Part shown: positions 10,509 through 32,047 of the stretch, piece by piece
How positions within the stretch are numbered: position 1 is the first letter of the stretch
How the letters are laid out: each line of letters opens with the position of its first letter
NCBI GenBank assembly: GCA_017477125.1
Contig: JAFUXN010000001.1
Span: 1-32,047, forward strand
Origin: Selenomonadaceae bacterium
Lineage (GTDB): Bacteria > Bacillota > Negativicutes > Selenomonadales > Selenomonadaceae
Direction of reading: 5' to 3'
Length of the DNA stretch: 32,047 bases
Notes under the pieces: generated by a model
What the model was told of the DNA's origin: nothing
The model's database searches: none
What the model saw: the letters and a program-made list of their open reading frames with translations, nothing else
Made by a program: the position numbers and the translations under genes

Positions 10509-11088
10509 TGTTTCCGCTCATAACGGCATAGTCGATTGGAAAGCCGTTAAGGACGCCGGGATCGACTTTGCGATCATCCGTACCGGCGCCGGACTTTCCA
10601 TTCAAGACGACTTCAAATCGAACGTATACGGCGCCAAGGACGCGGGGCTGCTGGTCGGAGCATACCACTACAGCTATGCGCTGACACCGTCGAGGGCGGC
10701 GCAGGAGGCGGCGTTCTGTCGCTCGATCATCGACGACGCCGGAGTGCTCCTCGAGCTGCCGGTGTTCTTCGATATGGAAGATGCCGACGGCTACAAGAAA
10801 CGCCACAGCTTCGATTTCAGCCGTCGAAATTGCACCCGCGTATGTTATGCCTTCCTGACCTCGATCGGGCTTCAGAATGGCGTGTACGCGTCATATGAGT
10901 GGTTTTCAAAGTTGATCGATTGGCAGAGTTTGGGCTGCGCGGTGTGGAATGCGCAATGGAGCTCACAAGACGACCTTCAGGGCATGCTCTGGCAGTTCAC
11001 CGACCGCTTCAACATAAACGGTCAACTCTTCGACGCCAATATCCTCTACGACCATTCTCATCGAGCGGGGCTTGATCCATGGCTGTGA
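10495..11088 (+). CDS. Endolysin, GH25 lysozyme
   Basis: 197 residues from ATG 10495 (AAGGACTGACC upstream). The start MKGIDVSAHNGIVDW and the catalytic DxE (D93-M-E95 in LPVFFDMEDADG) are GH25 signatures, as are YHYSYA and the final ILYDHSHRAGL. It cleaves the beta-1,4 bond between N-acetylmuramic acid and N-acetylglucosamine in peptidoglycan. The protein is only a catalytic domain with no SH3b, LysM or choline-binding repeats and no signal peptide, so export would depend on the holin-like protein. Its stop overlaps the ParB-like gene start. Confidence 0.92.
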   Translation: MKGIDVSAHNGIVDWKAVKDAGIDFAIIRTGAGLSIQDDFKSNVYGAKDAGLLVGAYHYSYALTPSRAAQEAAFCRSIIDDAGVLLELPVFFDMEDADGYKKRHSFDFSRRNCTRVCYAFLTSIGLQNGVYASYEWFSKLIDWQSLGCAVWNAQWSSQDDLQGMLWQFTDRFNINGQLFDANILYDHSHRAGLDPWL

Positions 11089-11984
11089 AGGAAGATGTTC
11101 AATGGGTCGATATCGGCTCCATCACTCCCTACGAGAAAAATCCTCGCGACAATGCCGCCGCCGTCCCGAAGGTCGCCGAATCGATCAAGCAGTTCGGGTT
11201 CCTGTCGCCGATCATCGTCGACGCCAACCGCGTCATCCTCGCCGGACATACTCGCTACCTCGCCGCCAAGTCGTTGGGGCTCGAGCACGTTCCCATCATC
11301 GTCGCCACCAATCTCTCGCCCGCACAAGCCAAGGCGTTCCGTCTCGCCGATAATAAGACGGCGGAGTACTCGAAATGGAACGACGCGCTCCTGCTCGAAC
11401 AACTTTCCGACCTGTCGGCTTTTCAATTCGACGTCGCCGACTGCGGTTTCGAGATCACCGAGATCGAAAAGCGTCGAATGAGTTGGTCGCGGACGGCACT
11501 CTTTTGCGACCTTCAACAACACATCGCGCTGAGCTCACACGCGGGATTCTTCTGCACTACACTTTTCAAGACCGGAAAGCACGGCGTTCCCATCGAGCTC
11601 ATTAAGCAAGACCCTTCCAAAGCCGCCATGATCGCCGATAACCTTTGCGATTACCTTGAACAGACGCTCGGTCACAATCTCCGCGCGGGAGGCTGGTGCA
11701 TTGTTACGGCTCCTCGGCGCCGACATAAGGACGGGTTTCATTTCAGTTCGGAGGTTTGTCGCGTCGCCTCGAGCATCTTGCACATCACCTTCTACCCTGA
11801 CGCCTTCCTCGCAAAGAACCGCGCGAGAGTGCACCCGAGCTTTGAACTGACGACGAACCCGCTCGAGCCGAATGTGCTGCTGTTCGACGACATCATCACG
11901 ACCGGGCAGACCATTCGCACTTGCCGGCAACTACTTCTCGACCACGGGCACTGCGTCGTGTCGCTGGTCGGACTCAAGAATTGA
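11079..11984 (+). CDS. ParB-like domain fused to a ComF-like phosphoribosyltransferase
   Basis: 301 residues in two domains. Residues about 5-90 are ParB/sulfiredoxin-like (ITPYEKNPRDN, SIKQFGFLSPIIVDANRVILAGHTRYLAAK; G56-H57-x-R59 is the nucleotide-binding box). Residues about 150-301 are a phosphoribosyltransferase: CIVTAPRRRHKDGFHFSSEVCRVAS resembles the ComF core, and VLLFDDIITTGQT (D270-D271, T274-T275-G276) is the PRPP loop. The gene begins inside the lysin stop and is followed by a DNA methyltransferase and a radical SAM gene with short spacings. Phage ParB domains often accompany DNA methyltransferases; the PRTase fusion is unusual and suggests a base- or nucleotide-modifying activity, which is inference. 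Confidence 0.82.
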   Translation: MAVKEDVQWVDIGSITPYEKNPRDNAAAVPKVAESIKQFGFLSPIIVDANRVILAGHTRYLAAKSLGLEHVPIIVATNLSPAQAKAFRLADNKTAEYSKWNDALLLEQLSDLSAFQFDVADCGFEITEIEKRRMSWSRTALFCDLQQHIALSSHAGFFCTTLFKTGKHGVPIELIKQDPSKAAMIADNLCDYLEQTLGHNLRAGGWCIVTAPRRRHKDGFHFSSEVCRVASSILHITFYPDAFLAKNRARVHPSFELTTNPLEPNVLLFDDIITTGQTIRTCRQLLLDHGHCVVSLVGLKN

Positions 11985-11994
11985 GGTGGCGACT

Positions 11995-12798
11995 ATGGAG
12001 CTCGATTGGATCAAATGCGCAAATTGCATCGAAGGCATGAAGGCGATACCCGACGGCACCGTCGACATGGTGCTCACCGACCCGCCATTCGGAACTCTCG
12101 ACGCGTTTTGGGATCGGCAACTGCCATTAAGCGAGATGTGGACGGAGTTCAAGCGCGTCACAAAACAAAACGCCGCCATGGTTATCTTCAGCCAGCTGCC
12201 CTTCGCCGTCGACGTGATCAACGCCAATCGCAAACAGTTCCGCTACGAATGGATTTGGCATAAGACCATGCCTGTCGGCTTCCTCAACGCCAATAAGATG
12301 CCATTGCGGGCGCATGAGAATATCCTCGTCTTTTATCGCAAGCTCCCGACTTACAACCCTCAATGGTGGTACTCAACGCCATACTCCGTGAAGTCGCACG
12401 AGGAATGGCAACGCAACTCTTACCGGCAGACCAAGCAGGGCAGAGTTGCGACGGAGCGCCACGACGGCAGACGTAATCCCATCGACGTGGTCAAGTACGG
12501 AGAAGCGACGCATTACACAGGGAAGCCTTCCGACCATGCCACTCAAAAACCCGTCGGCTTATGCGAGTACCTTATTCGAACCTACACCAACGAGGGCGAA
12601 CTGGTGCTGGACGCCTGCATGGGCAGCGGGACGACAGCGGTGGCGGCGGTCAACACCAACCGTCACTTCATCGGTTTCGAGTTGCATCAACCTTTCATCG
12701 ACATCGCCAACCGACGGCTCGCCCAAGCGCGAGAGAATTTGTTGCAGGCACAGACGAGTGTATTGGAGGGCTTTAACGATGAACATCGCGGTCATTGA
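11995..12798 (+). CDS. DNA methyltransferase, beta class (N6-adenine or N4-cytosine)
   Basis: 267 residues from ATG 11995 (TTGAGGTGGCGACT upstream; a longer frame from 11872 lies in the previous gene). Motif IV LTDPPFG is at residues 29-32 near the N terminus, and the SAM-binding motif I LDACMGSGTTAVAA is near 205-216, so the motif order is that of beta-class enzymes. HATQKPVGL precedes motif I as in many phage Dam-like enzymes. A DPPF rather than SPPY motif favours N6-adenine. No restriction endonuclease is adjacent, so this is an orphan enzyme that probably protects phage DNA or works with the flanking ParB-PRTase and radical SAM proteins. Confidence 0.9.
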   Translation: MELDWIKCANCIEGMKAIPDGTVDMVLTDPPFGTLDAFWDRQLPLSEMWTEFKRVTKQNAAMVIFSQLPFAVDVINANRKQFRYEWIWHKTMPVGFLNANKMPLRAHENILVFYRKLPTYNPQWWYSTPYSVKSHEEWQRNSYRQTKQGRVATERHDGRRNPIDVVKYGEATHYTGKPSDHATQKPVGLCEYLIRTYTNEGELVLDACMGSGTTAVAAVNTNRHFIGFELHQPFIDIANRRLAQARENLLQAQTSVLEGFNDEHRGH

Positions 12799-13834
12799 CG
12801 CAGACCTGCTCGGACGCAAGCGCCATCGTTTCCCCAACCTCGTCTGCATGAAACTCAGCGGCTACCACAAGGAACGCGGCGACACGGTTTCGCTCAAGCT
12901 CGATTACTCCGACCTCGACCAATTTGATCGAGTGTACATCGCCAAGGTGTTCACCGATACCCCCATCGACCAAGCCATTCTCGATAAGCCCAACGTCACT
13001 TACGGCGGAACGGGCTTTTTTTATGACCGCGCGGAACCGTTGCCGCCCGAGATCGAGCATCACATGCCCGATTATCATCTGTATGATCGATGGGCGGTGA
13101 CGCAGAAGCCTTCGGAGATCAAATTCTATGCCGAGTACTCGATCGGTTATCTCACGCGCGGCTGCTTCCGTCATTGCCCGTTCTGCGTCAACCGTCGAGC
13201 CGATAAGGTCATCGAGCACAGCCCGCTTGCCGAGTTCGATTCGCCTATCAACAGACGGATCGCGTTGCTCGATGATAACTTCCTCGGTTGCGAGCGTTGG
13301 CGGGAACTGTTAACCGACCTGCAGGCGACGGGCAAGCGGTTCAGCTTTCGTCAAGGGCTCGATGCTCGATTGCTCGACGATGACAAATGCGAGCTCCTGT
13401 TCCGCTCAAGGTATGACGGCGATTTCTATTTCTCCTTCGACAGCATTGCCGATAAGGAGATCATCGAGAGCAAGCTGGCATTGATACGCAAGCACACTCG
13501 AAAGCAATGCCGATTCTACCTCCTTGACGGCTTCAATCCGCGCAGAACTTACGACGATGCATTCTGGTTGCCGGCATTGAAGTCGTTGCTCGATCGGATT
13601 GAACTGCTGAAGCGCTACGACATGCTCGGCTACGTTATGCGATATCGGAGCATCGCCCAATCGCCCTTCCGCGTCATTCATCAACTCGTCGGCGCATGGT
13701 GCAATCAACCACGCTTCTTTCGCAAGATTTCTTGTCGGCAGTTCTCATACTTGCCCAAGCGAGAGAACGATGCTCGTCAGCTCGAGCGGTTCTTGAAAGA
13801 GTATCCGCAGTTCGAACATTACTTTGACCAATAA
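12779..13834 (+). CDS. Radical SAM protein, phage B12-binding-like family
   Basis: 351 residues from ATG 12779, 8 nt after TTGGAGGG and overlapping the methyltransferase gene by 20 nt. The 4Fe-4S motif is C129-x3-C133-x2-C136 (LTRGCFRHCPFCVNR). The N-terminal part (VIDADLLGRKRHRFPNLVCMKLSGYHKERGD...VYIAKVF) is Rossmann-like and resembles the B12-binding domain of this family, but I see no clear cobalamin His. FSFRQGLDARLLDDDK follows the pattern of related radical SAM proteins in many Firmicutes phages, whose substrate is unknown. It is the last gene before a bidirectional terminator. Linkage to a DNA methyltransferase suggests nucleic-acid modification. Confidence 0.87.
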   Translation: MNIAVIDADLLGRKRHRFPNLVCMKLSGYHKERGDTVSLKLDYSDLDQFDRVYIAKVFTDTPIDQAILDKPNVTYGGTGFFYDRAEPLPPEIEHHMPDYHLYDRWAVTQKPSEIKFYAEYSIGYLTRGCFRHCPFCVNRRADKVIEHSPLAEFDSPINRRIALLDDNFLGCERWRELLTDLQATGKRFSFRQGLDARLLDDDKCELLFRSRYDGDFYFSFDSIADKEIIESKLALIRKHTRKQCRFYLLDGFNPRRTYDDAFWLPALKSLLDRIELLKRYDMLGYVMRYRSIAQSPFRVIHQLVGAWCNQPRFFRKISCRQFSYLPKRENDARQLERFLKEYPQFEHYFDQ

Positions 13835-13837
13835 AAA

Positions 13838-13862
13838 AGGCGGTTGTGCACCGCCTCTTTTT
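13838..13862. terminator. Bidirectional intrinsic terminator
   Basis: AGGCGGT (13838-13844) pairs with ACCGCCT (13850-13856) around a 5-nt loop. It is flanked by A6 on the left and CTTTTTT on the right, so it can stop transcripts from both sides: the + strand modification genes ending at 13834 and the minus strand exonuclease-TerD gene ending at 13862. Confidence 0.9.
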
Positions 13863-15100
13863 TATTTCAATCTCGACGTCAGAGCATCGTTTAGCTCCTC
13901 CCGGCGCCCTTCAAGGTACTCGATGATCGCATCGTTTACCAGCTCGCTCATGGTTGAGCCTCGAAGAGCGGCAAGCATCTTGATCTCAGCCTTTGCCTTC
14001 GCCGAGATCATCGCCGTGATCGATTCCTTTTTCTCTTTCACCTCAAGACCGTAGTTGCGCACCAAGGCACTCAAGCCGCCGCTGAAACCCGACCCGATCG
14101 CATGGAATTTCCATTGCGCTCCATGCCGATAGAGCTCGCACAACACTATCGCCGTCTCACACGAATAGTCCTCCGCCGGCTCATAACGGATCAACTCCGC
14201 TCCCGTCACCGCATCGCATACACTCACGTTCAACCCGACCAGATTTTTGAAGGTATGTCGGCGCGCGTCGGCATCGTATATGGTCAAGGTCAAGTCGATC
14301 TTCTCGGCGACAACCTTCGAAAGCCTGATCTTGAATTGCGCCCCCGACTCAACGTTCAACTGCTCGACCGAACCCGACGGATGCCTCGGCTGATTGTAGA
14401 AGATCATCGCCGAGTCCGCCGACGCTCGACCTGTGCCGTCAAGCAAAAAAACGGCAGCGTCGACGTCGACACCGCCGCTTGTGCTCCAATCTGCCTTCAA
14501 CAGCAGCTCGGGCGCGCCTTCGGTCACCGAGACCTTTTGCCCTCGAACCACTCTTACCGGCTCGGAGTACTTGACCGAGATCGTTTCAATGACCTTCGAG
14601 AGGATCAAGCAATCGTTAAGGGCGCGATGACGGCGCATTCGAAGGTTCAGAGCACGACAGATGTTTGAGAGGCGATGAGAAGTAAGGTCGGGCAGAGCCG
14701 TTCGACACAGCTTAACCGTATCGACGTAATCATTGACCAACTGCAAGCCGAGGACACGGTCGAAGTTTCGATAGAGGAAGGAAATATCGAAGGTGACGTT
14801 GTGCCCGACGAGAATTTCATCGGCTAAGTAATCCCACAGAGCGCGCGCAATGATCTCGAATTTGGGAGCGTTTGCCAGCATCTCATTTGTGATGCCGGTA
14901 ATGCCCTCGATTTGAGCAGAGACCTTGCAGGGCGGACTTATCAAGCTCGAATAACGGTTAATTTCCTGACCGTCACGGAATTTGATGCAGCCTACCTCGA
15001 TGAGGTGATCGGCGGTGGGACTGAAACCGCTGGTTTCGATGTCAATGATGGTGTAATCGCGCGGCAGACACTTGAGCTCATGCCCTTTTTTTATTTCCAT
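13862..15100 (-). CDS. DnaQ-like exonuclease-TerD-ribbon-helix-helix fusion protein
   Basis: 412 residues with three parts. Residues about 14-175 are a DEDDh 3'-5' exonuclease: D20-I-E22-T (TIIDIETSG), H100-N-V-T-F-D105, and H158-R-A-L-N-D163. Residues about 205-360 are a TerD domain (VDVDAAVFLLDGTGRASADSAMIFYNQ, TIYDADARRHTF, ETAIVLCELYRHGAQWKFHAIGSGFSGGLSALVRNYG); TerD proteins bind calcium and occur in tellurite- and phage-stress operons. Residues about 367-402 look like a ribbon-helix-helix DNA-binding segment (ISAKAKAEIKMLAALRGSTMSELVNDAIIEYLEGR). Start ATG has GAGGTGAGACG upstream. It is cotranscribed with the repressor (9 nt gap), so it is probably expressed in the prophage state. Function inferred: lysogenic conversion, perhaps superinfection defence. 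Confidence 0.85.
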   Translation of the reverse strand: MEIKKGHELKCLPRDYTIIDIETSGFSPTADHLIEVGCIKFRDGQEINRYSSLISPPCKVSAQIEGITGITNEMLANAPKFEIIARALWDYLADEILVGHNVTFDISFLYRNFDRVLGLQLVNDYVDTVKLCRTALPDLTSHRLSNICRALNLRMRRHRALNDCLILSKVIETISVKYSEPVRVVRGQKVSVTEGAPELLLKADWSTSGGVDVDAAVFLLDGTGRASADSAMIFYNQPRHPSGSVEQLNVESGAQFKIRLSKVVAEKIDLTLTIYDADARRHTFKNLVGLNVSVCDAVTGAELIRYEPAEDYSCETAIVLCELYRHGAQWKFHAIGSGFSGGLSALVRNYGLEVKEKKESITAMISAKAKAEIKMLAALRGSTMSELVNDAIIEYLEGRREELNDALTSRLK

Positions 15101-15109
15101 CGTCTCACC

Positions 15110-15328
15110 TCAAAAGGAATGCGCTTGTTGCGGGAACTCATTGCAAAGGAGGTAATCGATGGTGGTATCGAAGAGCCTGGAAAGTTTACGGAGATTGTCG
15201 AAGGAACATTCACGTTCACCGCTTTCATAGCGCCCGTAAGCCTGGCGAGTAACGGACAGCTGATTTGCAACGTACTCTTGCGTCAGATTGCGTTCTTCAC
15301 GCGCTTCTCTAAATCTGTTGTTCTTCAC
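15110..15328 (-). CDS. CI-like XRE-family repressor (small)
   Basis: 72 residues with a clear HTH (NLTQEYVANQLSVTRQAYGRYESGERECSFDNLRKLSRLFDTTIDYLL). The start is GTG at 15328, chosen because GAGGAGGTG lies 6 nt upstream; a longer frame starting at 15349 would put that ribosome site inside the coding region and begin at the predicted transcription start. It is divergent from the Cro-like gene and first in a two-gene minus-strand operon with the exonuclease-TerD gene. No peptidase domain is present, so RecA-driven autocleavage is not expected; induction must work differently. Confidence 0.85.
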   Translation of the reverse strand: MKNNRFREAREERNLTQEYVANQLSVTRQAYGRYESGERECSFDNLRKLSRLFDTTIDYLLCNEFPQQAHSF

Positions 15329-15345
15329 GGTCAACACCTCCTCGT

Positions 15346-15417
15346 GCACATTATATGTGCCAATATGGCAACCGTCAAAACGATTTTGTAACCGTATTGA
15401 CGCGGTACCAAAACGGT
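15346..15417. promoter_or_regulatory. Operator region of the divergent genetic switch
   Basis: Three dyads lie between the divergent genes: GCACAT-TAT-ATGTGC (15346-15360, perfect) overlapping the leftward -10; CAAAA-CGA-TTTTG (15376-15388, perfect) between the promoters; and ACCGT-ATTGAC-GCGGT (15391-15406, one mismatch) on the rightward -35. ACC-AAAAC-GGT follows at 15408-15417 within the rightward spacer. They differ in sequence, so the repressor and the Cro-like protein may recognise different dyads. Confidence 0.6.
15350..15378 (-). promoter_or_regulatory. Leftward promoter for repressor and exonuclease-TerD operon
   Basis: On the minus strand TTGACG (15373-15378) and TATAAT (15350-15355) are separated by 17 bp. 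The -10 lies inside the GCACAT-TAT-ATGTGC dyad. Transcription would start near 15343, about 15 nt before the GTG start at 15328. Confidence 0.85.
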
Positions 15418-15425
15418 GCTAAAAT
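15397..15425 (+). promoter_or_regulatory. Rightward early promoter
   Basis: TTGACG (15397-15402) and TAAAAT (15420-15425) are separated by 17 bp. It drives the Cro-like gene at 15450 and probably the whole early replication operon to 21082. Dyads overlapping the -35 and spacer are suited to repression. Confidence 0.85.
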
Positions 15426-15449
15426 AAAAAATCGATTGGAGGTGTGGTT

Positions 15450-15665
15450 ATGCCCGAGCCCAAGATTCGTCAATGGCTGATTGATGCCAGGAAGGTCAAA
15501 GGATTAACTCAGGAGGAGGTTGCCACGTCTGTCGGCGTCACTCGTACCACTTATGCCCGTTATGAAATGGGGGAACGCACACCCAGACCGAAGATTGCCG
15601 ACGCATTGGCTCATACTTTGAACGTTCATCGGGAGAAATTCTTTTGGGATCAACAGAAGGAATGA
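15450..15665 (+). CDS. Cro-like XRE-family regulator
   Basis: 71 residues from ATG 15450, 5 nt after GGAGGTG; an in-frame GTG at 15444 would overlap the ribosome site. The HTH is LTQEEVATSVGVTRTTYARYEMGERTPRPKIADALAHTLNV, very similar in layout to the opposing repressor, which suggests an old duplication of one regulator. It ends FFWDQQKE. First gene of the rightward early operon, it is the expected antagonist of the minus-strand repressor. Confidence 0.85.
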   Translation: MPEPKIRQWLIDARKVKGLTQEEVATSVGVTRTTYARYEMGERTPRPKIADALAHTLNVHREKFFWDQQKE

Positions 15666-15669
15666 TGTA

Positions 15670-16044
15670 ATGGCGAATTTTATCATTGACGGCGTGAAGG
15701 TTGAGACGCTGGCTGTCGACGACATCACACGCGCCGAGGCTGAAAAATATGTTGCTTACGTTCAAGAGCGAGTATCGGAGCCGATAAGAGAGATACGCGT
15801 CATCGGCTTGCCCGACGGAACAATCAACCTCGATTACGAGTTGCGCGGACCGAAGTTCGAGCGCATCAGGCGGATCACCGGCTATCTCAGCGGGGATATC
15901 AATACTTGGAACAACGCCAAGCGTGCCGAGGAGCGCGACAGAGTGAAGCACGGTTTGGACGGCGTTGACTTCGAAGAGAAAAACATCTACCGTGAACAGT
16001 TTGCGTCGGAGGCGAAGGGCGACGGCTTGATCATGCCGCGTTGA
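15670..16044 (+). CDS. Small NrdD-like phage protein
   Basis: 124 residues from ATG 15670 (AAGGAATGATGTA upstream). The central stretch RIRRITGYLSGDINTWNNAKRAEERDRVKHG resembles the C-terminal part of anaerobic ribonucleotide reductase (RITGYL...NNAK...ERDRV), and short phage proteins of this kind are commonly named after it. It lacks the catalytic body and the glycyl-radical loop, so it cannot be a reductase. It may modulate the host NrdD enzyme or have a different role. Position directly after the Cro-like gene makes it an early gene. Confidence 0.6.
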   Translation: MANFIIDGVKVETLAVDDITRAEAEKYVAYVQERVSEPIREIRVIGLPDGTINLDYELRGPKFERIRRITGYLSGDINTWNNAKRAEERDRVKHGLDGVDFEEKNIYREQFASEAKGDGLIMPR

Positions 16045-31361: not shown

Positions 31362-31908
31362 CGACACGATGAGACAGACGTTGAGCGGCGGGCTGGTAGT
31401 GCAAGGGCGCCCCGGACTGTTCACGCCGGCAGATGCTTATCGGCTTGATGTGGCATACGGTTCGGCAACATTGGGCGGAAGCGGCGGAGGAGGAGACTTT
31501 GATCTGTCGTTTACCGGCGACGTGGAAGGCGCGTTGTACACCGACGCGAGCGGAACCAAGATCGCCGTCCTTACGATCCCCGATTACGACAATCTCAAGT
31601 TCGAATTGGAGAACGTGAAGACGAAGCTGTCGGAGCTTGAGAATGCCGATAATGAAGCGGTGACGGGAAGGTTGGACGATTTGGAAAGCAGCCTGGAGCA
31701 ATTGCAGACGGCGACCGACACGCTCCGCGCGGAGCTGGACAACGTGAGCGAGGATCAGAGGAATTACCTGAGACGAGTGAGTGAGAGCACGGTAGACGGG
31801 TCGTTGCGTTTTGTTGACGGATACGGCATTGAGACTTACACGCTTAGCGGCGCGCAATACGAAACGGTTACGGCGCAGTCGCAGGAGCCTACAAATCCTG
31901 ACGATTAA
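31354..31908 (+). CDS. Coiled-coil fibre/whisker-like protein
   Basis: 184 residues from ATG 31354, 7 nt after GAGGTGGTG (ATG 31348 is too close). A short N-terminal segment (QTLSGGLVVQGRPGLFTPADAYRLDV) and a Gly-rich linker (GGSGGGGDFDLSFTGD) precede a beta part, then a heptad coiled coil near 88-150 (LKFELENVKTKLSELENADNEAVTGRLDDLESSLEQLQTATDTLRAELDNV), suited to a trimeric rod, and a C-terminal beta cap. With the two upstream genes it forms a probable neck-appendage set. Followed by GGGAGGTGAT for the truncated gene at 31923. Confidence 0.62.
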   Translation: MDSDTMRQTLSGGLVVQGRPGLFTPADAYRLDVAYGSATLGGSGGGGDFDLSFTGDVEGALYTDASGTKIAVLTIPDYDNLKFELENVKTKLSELENADNEAVTGRLDDLESSLEQLQTATDTLRAELDNVSEDQRNYLRRVSESTVDGSLRFVDGYGIETYTLSGAQYETVTAQSQEPTNPDD

Positions 31909-31922
31909 GGGAGGTGATACAG

Positions 31923-32047
31923 ATGGCAGTCACTAAGAACAACACCAAATACACGGTGCGCGTCGAGTACAAAACCGCTTACGACACCGCCGGCGATTTC
32001 CCGTCTCTCCAAAACTACAGCCAGACCTTCTCCAACGTCAAGGAGAC
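31923..32047 (+). CDS. 5' end of an unrecognised protein, truncated by the window end
   Basis: ATG 31923 sits 4 nt after GGGAGGTGAT and the frame stays open to the window end: 41 codons plus two bases (MAVTKNNTKYTVRVEY..., beta-type, Thr/Tyr-rich). C-ending codons match those of bases 1-132. If the genome is circular it continues there, but only with one extra base at the joint. Protein family not recognised. Confidence 0.7.
   Translation, partial: MAVTKNNTKYTVRVEYKTAYDTAGDFPSLQNYSQTFSNVKE

Follow-up and report, generated by a model that had tools for sequence, protein, structure and literature searches.

The contig analysed here (32,047 nucleotides of a Selenomonadaceae bacterium, hereafter the window) carries on its minus strand a 412-residue protein in which a DEDDh exonuclease, a TerD domain and a ribbon-helix-helix (RHH) tail are joined, and whose gene is the second of a phage repressor operon. 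As judged from sequence, the gene is a domain-swapped variant of a common temperate-phage exonuclease family, usually exonuclease-BRCT, because its nuclease half belongs to that family and its TerD-RHH half has stand-alone relatives. We assign a probability of roughly 0.4 to the reading that the fusion would be an accessory nuclease of the lysogeny operon, working like BstA or RexAB, an analogy drawn from position and domains.

The fusion gene and its repressor operon

The features of the operon and of the fusion gene are as follows.

13838..13856, either strand: hairpin terminator with T-run, usable on both strands, closing the operon (hairpin prediction)
13862..15100, minus strand: exonuclease-TerD-RHH fusion gene, 412 aa (ORF list, Pfam, residue check)
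13910..14020, minus strand: CopG-like RHH tail, residues 361-397 (Pfam and tail profile)
14051..14554, minus strand: TerD domain, residues 183-350 (Pfam E 9e-44)
14339..14362, minus strand: residues 247-254, where the TerD calcium loop is missing (alignments, loop census and the residue list in an excerpt of PMC8779313)
14591..15049, minus strand: RNase_T domain (DEDDh 3'-5' exonuclease), residues 18-170 (Pfam E 2e-30)
15104..15110, minus strand: AGGTGAG, the likely ribosome-binding site for the fusion; it takes in the final base of the repressor stop codon (inference from sequence)
15110..15349, minus strand: CI-type HTH_3 repressor, which opens the operon (Pfam HTH_3 E 4e-16)
15350..15378, minus strand: sigma-70-like promoter TTGACG-17-TATAAT for repressor and fusion (consensus match alone, 11/12)
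15363..15402, no strand assigned: short direct and inverted repeats, operator-like, lying between the two divergent promoters (may be due to chance)
15397..15425, plus strand: divergent promoter-like site TTGACG-17-TAAAAT (consensus match)
15444..15665, plus strand: divergent HTH_3 gene in a Cro-like position (Pfam HTH_3 E 6e-15)

The fusion starts 9 bp downstream of the CI-type repressor gene, on the same strand; for the repressor itself a GTG at 15328, preceded by GAGGAGG, is the likelier start. A site scan of the operon predicted no promoter between the two genes, and the terminator hairpin at 13838-13856 folds with a z of -5.6 on the minus strand. Promoter-like and terminator-like sites are not in excess of shuffles (2 against 1.3 and 2 against 2.2, respectively), therefore the operon call rests on gene layout. 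With the HTH_3 repressor immediately upstream and the terminator downstream, the placement of the fusion in a repressor operon, proposed by the sequence-only reading, is borne out. Its expression in a lysogen is likely, by the predicted promoter ahead of the repressor only.

The open reading frame begins with ATG and has no internal stop. Both the RNase_T and the TerD match of the whole 412-residue protein lie well above the Pfam cut-offs, TerD scoring 149.6 bits against 25.3, which places the domain in the TerD family and agrees with the full TerD domain read earlier from the letters. The exonuclease part matches PDB 2p1j (E 3e-28), and the TerD part 3ibz (E 4e-29) and 2kxt (E 4e-26). The intact active site had also been read correctly, residue by residue: D20, E22, D105, H158 and D163 are all present and are invariant in the alignment of the three full-length fusions. 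Together with the RNase_T match, this set of residues assigns the domain by its sequence to the DEDDh (RNase_T/DnaQ-type) exonucleases.

The RHH-like tail is confirmed with a weaker signal. In the whole protein RHH_1 matches residues 361-397 at E 0.005 and 17.1 bits, below the cut-off of 20.5, and the 58-residue tail scanned alone reaches 22.3 bits, above it. A profile of five tails compared with the PDB gives the CopG RHH structure 9kkd as the top match (E 7.5e-4), followed by 2kel (E 0.011); at E above 0.4, other RHH chains are interspersed with unrelated chains. In the five-member tail alignment, RHH_1 matches three members and Antitox_RHH four, with E up to 1, and P0009 is alone among the relatives' RHH tails in reaching a cut-off (56B_RHH, 27.2, equal to the cut-off of 27.2). 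The tail has the strand-helix-helix pattern of RHH/CopG proteins, and DNA binding is predicted.

The phage nature of the contig is clear from its other genes. Comparison of 30 window ORFs with PHROGs recovered terminase, portal, protease, major head, adaptor, head-closure, major tail and endolysin proteins, the contig break falling between the head-closure and tail genes. The last 141 bases (31907-32047) are identical to the end of contig C76 of the same genome, and the first 200 match the start of its contig C36 at 97%. Shared contig ends are a sign of a repeat or of a permuted element; the contig is probably permuted. No integrase was found on the window contig, and tyrosine and serine recombinase families match elsewhere in the genome; the window phage is therefore only presumed to form stable lysogens. 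The segment from endolysin to fusion (11079-13834, plus strand), the place where an integrase might be expected, encodes a ParB-N protein, an N6/N4 methyltransferase and a radical-SAM-like protein (phrog_9298). On the other side of the switch, 15670-16044 encodes a 124-residue protein matching only the last ~30 residues of NrdD (Pfam E 4e-7), as if the NrdD C-terminal tail stood alone.

Relatives of the fusion and of its parts

A search with the fusion protein found full-length matches in two of 119 relative genomes: G052, about 65-66% identical over residues 4-403, and G032, about 44-46% identical over residues 1-403. Because these full-length relatives exist in two other genomes, the gene is one uninterrupted reading frame, as the sequence-only reading had held, and not split by a frameshift; a chance ORF or an assembly chimera is ruled out in the same way, by full-length copies in three genomes.

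Wider searches added none. Across the class (380 genomes, 66 of them of the genus, up to four candidates being scored in each), the matches listed include three full-length fusions, the window's among them, and a GTDB scan confirmed two of 67 pattern stretches, again the G052 and G032 copies. IMG/VR scans with the window protein and with the G032 protein confirmed no relative; among phage records, the window protein has 168 matches, none over 80% of its length. The exonuclease-TerD-RHH triple appears confined to this genus.

The two relatives stand in different surroundings. In G032, on a 4.6-kb contig, the fusion lies ~127 bp behind an HTH_3 repressor, with divergent HTH and Phage_pRha genes; this phage-like locus conserves the order of repressor and fusion despite the low protein identity. 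In G052 the fusion is alone among housekeeping genes, without a repressor and preceded by a strong promoter-like sequence. Its neighbours are a dehydrogenase, a sodium:solute symporter, peptide-transport permeases, DnaJ and a radical-SAM protein; a family was found for six of the seven scanned, and none is phage-like. Since this copy stands without a prophage repressor, the fusion's role cannot depend on one.

When the window copy is compared with that of G052, third codon positions account for most differences in each of the three domains; the differences amount to 0.28, 0.18 and 0.57 at positions 1 to 3. dN is 0.26; dS is 1.7 for TerD and saturated in the other parts. The RHH is the least conserved part (51%).

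Joining an exonuclease to TerD, part of a combination that the sequence-only reading did not recognise, turns out not to be new. Paenibacillus cellulosilyticus WP_110042962.1, annotated as a 'TerD family protein', combines the two, as do ORFs of Nocardia farcinica and a Streptomyces sp. As in the window, the exonuclease comes first and TerD second; unlike the window protein, these fusions lack RHH and their exonucleases are distant in the tree, and the actinobacterial ORFs carry a BRCT between the two. When the Paenibacillus fusion was searched across the phylum (398 genomes), none of the matches listed spans both halves. As a separate observation, in a distant genome (L100, G401:C1:1489952-1491316) an exonuclease gene adjoins a TerD gene, divergent and unfused.

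The halves also occur apart. In two genomes of the same genus, G043 and G038, a TerD-RHH protein 40-41% identical to the window's has a homologous RHH tail like the window's and no exonuclease; both genes stand alone in the chromosome, with metabolic neighbours as read from translations. G010 and G056 encode exonuclease-BRCT proteins without TerD, and G058 a TPR-like exonuclease, also without TerD (TPR being the reader's label, as Pfam showed the exonuclease only). An IMG/VR scan with the alignment of the three fusions gave 13 exonuclease loci and no ORF with TerD; one with the TerD-RHH alignment gave 38 loci and 90 TerD ORFs, all of which lack both RHH and an exonuclease.

In the exonuclease tree (27 rows), the window, G052, G032 and G058 form one clade (96/99) beside the phage exonuclease-BRCT proteins. 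Within it G032 is nearest to G058 (63%); the exonuclease-BRCT proteins of G010 and G056 come next (90/85), and Paenibacillus and Streptomyces fall outside on long branches. In the TerD trees (39 and 30 rows), G032 groups with the TerD-RHH proteins of G043 and G038 (100/95 and 97/95), and the window and G052 form a pair elsewhere, set apart by a long branch; a test does not reject a single clade of these five TerD domains (p 0.29). As the two kinds of tree group the fusions differently, parts have, on this sequence evidence, been exchanged between proteins, and the fusion may have arisen once or twice.

Exonucleases behind repressors

The nuclease half has a large phage family. In phage records the G010 exonuclease-BRCT protein has 170 matches, 32 of them over 80% of its length, and it has 26 IMG/VR loci. 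BRCT was found in nine of ten phage exonucleases scanned with Pfam, one below the cut-off. Proteins as variously named as the 'exonuclease' of Streptococcus phage IPP44 and the 'DNA polymerase III PolC, epsilon subunit' of Campylobacter phage CJIE4 belong to the same DEDDh family as the fusion. Two phage exonuclease-BRCT proteins (L117:4980-6266 and L135:1792-3192) have long extra C-terminal stretches with no Pfam match, perhaps more partner domains.

Members of this family recur behind repressors. An HTH gene lies no more than 900 bp upstream, in the same orientation, of 14 of 24 IMG/VR exonuclease relatives. Among background ORFs from these loci the figure is 23 of 222 (Fisher p 2e-7; with a near-duplicate removed, 13 of 23 exonucleases and p 7e-7). 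The contrast is rough, as the background ORFs were called mechanically and include some non-genes, and these loci also served to train the HTH model. The 24 genes come from L112-L137, minus L137 (sub-threshold) and L125 and L132 (less than 900 bp upstream), L127 contributing two genes. Counting all loci, including those that prompted the idea, the ratio is 18 of 29 (33 genes, four with short upstream sequence dropped). For the remaining 10 of the 24, no repressor was found within 900 bp.

The phage exonuclease-BRCT proteins are thus often directly behind the repressor, like the fusion, and carry BRCT instead of TerD-RHH. With its exonuclease in their clade and its gene directly behind a repressor, the fusion falls among the repressor-linked phage exonucleases. 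The idea that TerD accounts for the gene's place is not supported: because exonuclease-BRCT relatives without TerD occupy the same place, it is the nuclease half that ties the fusion to lysogeny modules.

Possible roles of the fusion

The gene's position, strand and recurrence are in keeping with expression during phage quiescence, and a nuclease that has a predicted DNA-binding tail and a putative partner-binding TerD would suit phage defence. From the sequence, superinfection immunity or stress protection is a plausible role. Several known systems offer a precedent. In parts of the published accounts, bstA is a defence gene behind a repressor that has prophage-free homologues and a DNA-binding part resembling KilA-N (PMC8585504), the exclusion gene ltp sits in a lysogeny module (PMC3952083), and the repressor-adjacent region is a site of accessory genes, for example rexAB (PMC7067206). 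BstA, with its DNA-binding part, and RexAB are encoded second, behind the repressor, as is the fusion (PMC8585504, in part). Scans with Pfam, PHROGs and PADLOC found no sequence relation of the fusion to BstA or RexAB, and it is not a member of either family. BstA is presumably no nuclease, going by its sequence. The PADLOC matches of the fusion itself (PDC-S48 and CRISPR-associated DEDDh) say nothing specific, because they cover the exonuclease part only.

The TerD domain is shared with ter systems, and phage inhibition by a ter plasmid is reduced by terD insertions, according to an excerpt of PMC12054061. The fusion differs from these systems in having no ter partner genes in its operon, which consists of repressor and fusion only, and in having lost the calcium loop. 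The genome of the window (G000, 91.5% complete) has five TerD places besides the fusion, on C38 and C96; TerC was not found in it.

The sequence-only reading had also suggested that calcium binding by TerD gates the nuclease. The available text on the TerD of Klebsiella (KP-TerD) reports two bound calcium ions and lists residues 40, 41, 42, 78, 79, 89 and 29, 82, 84, 88 (PMC8779313). Counted on an alignment to KP-TerD, with chain numbers taken as the paper's numbering, the window keeps D at 40 and 42 (D212 and D214), W at 29 and G at 82, and has a hydrophobic residue at 41; positions 78, 79 and 89 have become V, E and A, and 84 and 88 are deleted. Five of the ten residues in that text are thus lost, and with them the two sites. 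A rough loop pattern is present in 48 of 77 TerD domains; the 29 without it comprise five of the six exonuclease fusions, both TerD-RHH proteins (with degenerate loops) and 22 others, one gene being counted twice. Since these 22 also lack the pattern, loop loss is, by sequence, not peculiar to the fusions, and the loop does not define all TerD members. The G032 fusion retains a near-complete loop, which, with D212 and D214, speaks for a calcium gate; given the losses in the window copy and in most fusions, we regard such a gate as very improbable.

Three other roles deserve consideration. The fusion might be an enzyme of phage DNA metabolism, a proofreading or end-trimming exonuclease for the phage's own replication or recombination that is merely stored in the repressor operon. 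Its closest characterised sequences are the proofreading exonucleases PolC and DnaQ, phrog_192 is labelled as a DNA polymerase exonuclease subunit, and the phage encodes a Sak4-like annealing protein and a primase. The gene is, however, co-oriented with the repressor in its operon, the replication genes being on the other strand; no polymerase for it to serve was seen among the 30 window ORFs scanned, and the chromosomal copy of G052 is alone. We find this role unlikely. That lone copy, with its strong promoter-like sequence, the membership in the TerD family and the stand-alone TerD-RHH genes of two genomes would suit a general stress or fitness moron, which would shield the host from DNA damage or oxidants in a TerD-like manner, without being directed at phages. 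The recurrent link of the nuclease half with repressors, and a host genome with TerD genes but no TerC found, make it likewise an unlikely account. The RHH tail, the repressor as partner and the repeats between the promoters could instead point to a regulator of the lysogeny switch, the RHH binding operator DNA and the exonuclease acting on RNA or DNA of the switch region; with the repressor and the divergent HTH protein already covering that role, and stand-alone TerD-RHH proteins and the G052 fusion existing without a switch, this appears rather improbable.

The accessory-nuclease reading draws on the fusion being the second gene of a repressor operon, the conserved order in G032, the ratio of 14/24 against 23/222, the tree and the codon pattern. 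Counted against it are the lone G052 copy, the 10 of 24 relatives with no repressor found within 900 bp, and the failure to find an integrase on the contig or TerC in the genome. Under the accessory-nuclease reading, a repressor-linked DEDDh exonuclease whose usual BRCT partner has been replaced by TerD-RHH would be transcribed together with the repressor during phage quiescence. The RHH part would dimerise the fusion and anchor it on DNA; the TerD part, here without the canonical calcium loop, may recognise a partner or ligand; and the nuclease would trim free 3' ends of an incoming phage's nucleic acid. The outcome might be survival of the resident phage and its host, or abortion of the infection by the infected cell.

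More generally, many temperate phages may hold a defence nuclease behind the repressor, with a fixed DEDDh exonuclease and an exchangeable BRCT, TPR or TerD-RHH partner that would set sensing or binding, the window having the TerD-RHH version, which would also have moved to the chromosome as a free-standing gene. This extension is possible but more doubtful than the role proposed for the fusion itself. Should defence fail as an explanation, the constant place behind the repressor would still pose the question of why temperate phages express an exonuclease when quiet. If the extension is true, scattered phage genes annotated as DNA polymerase subunits would become a candidate class of repressor-linked accessory nucleases, the swapping of partners would be testable by exchanging halves between laboratory phages, and TerD would gain a direct tie to nucleic-acid processing.
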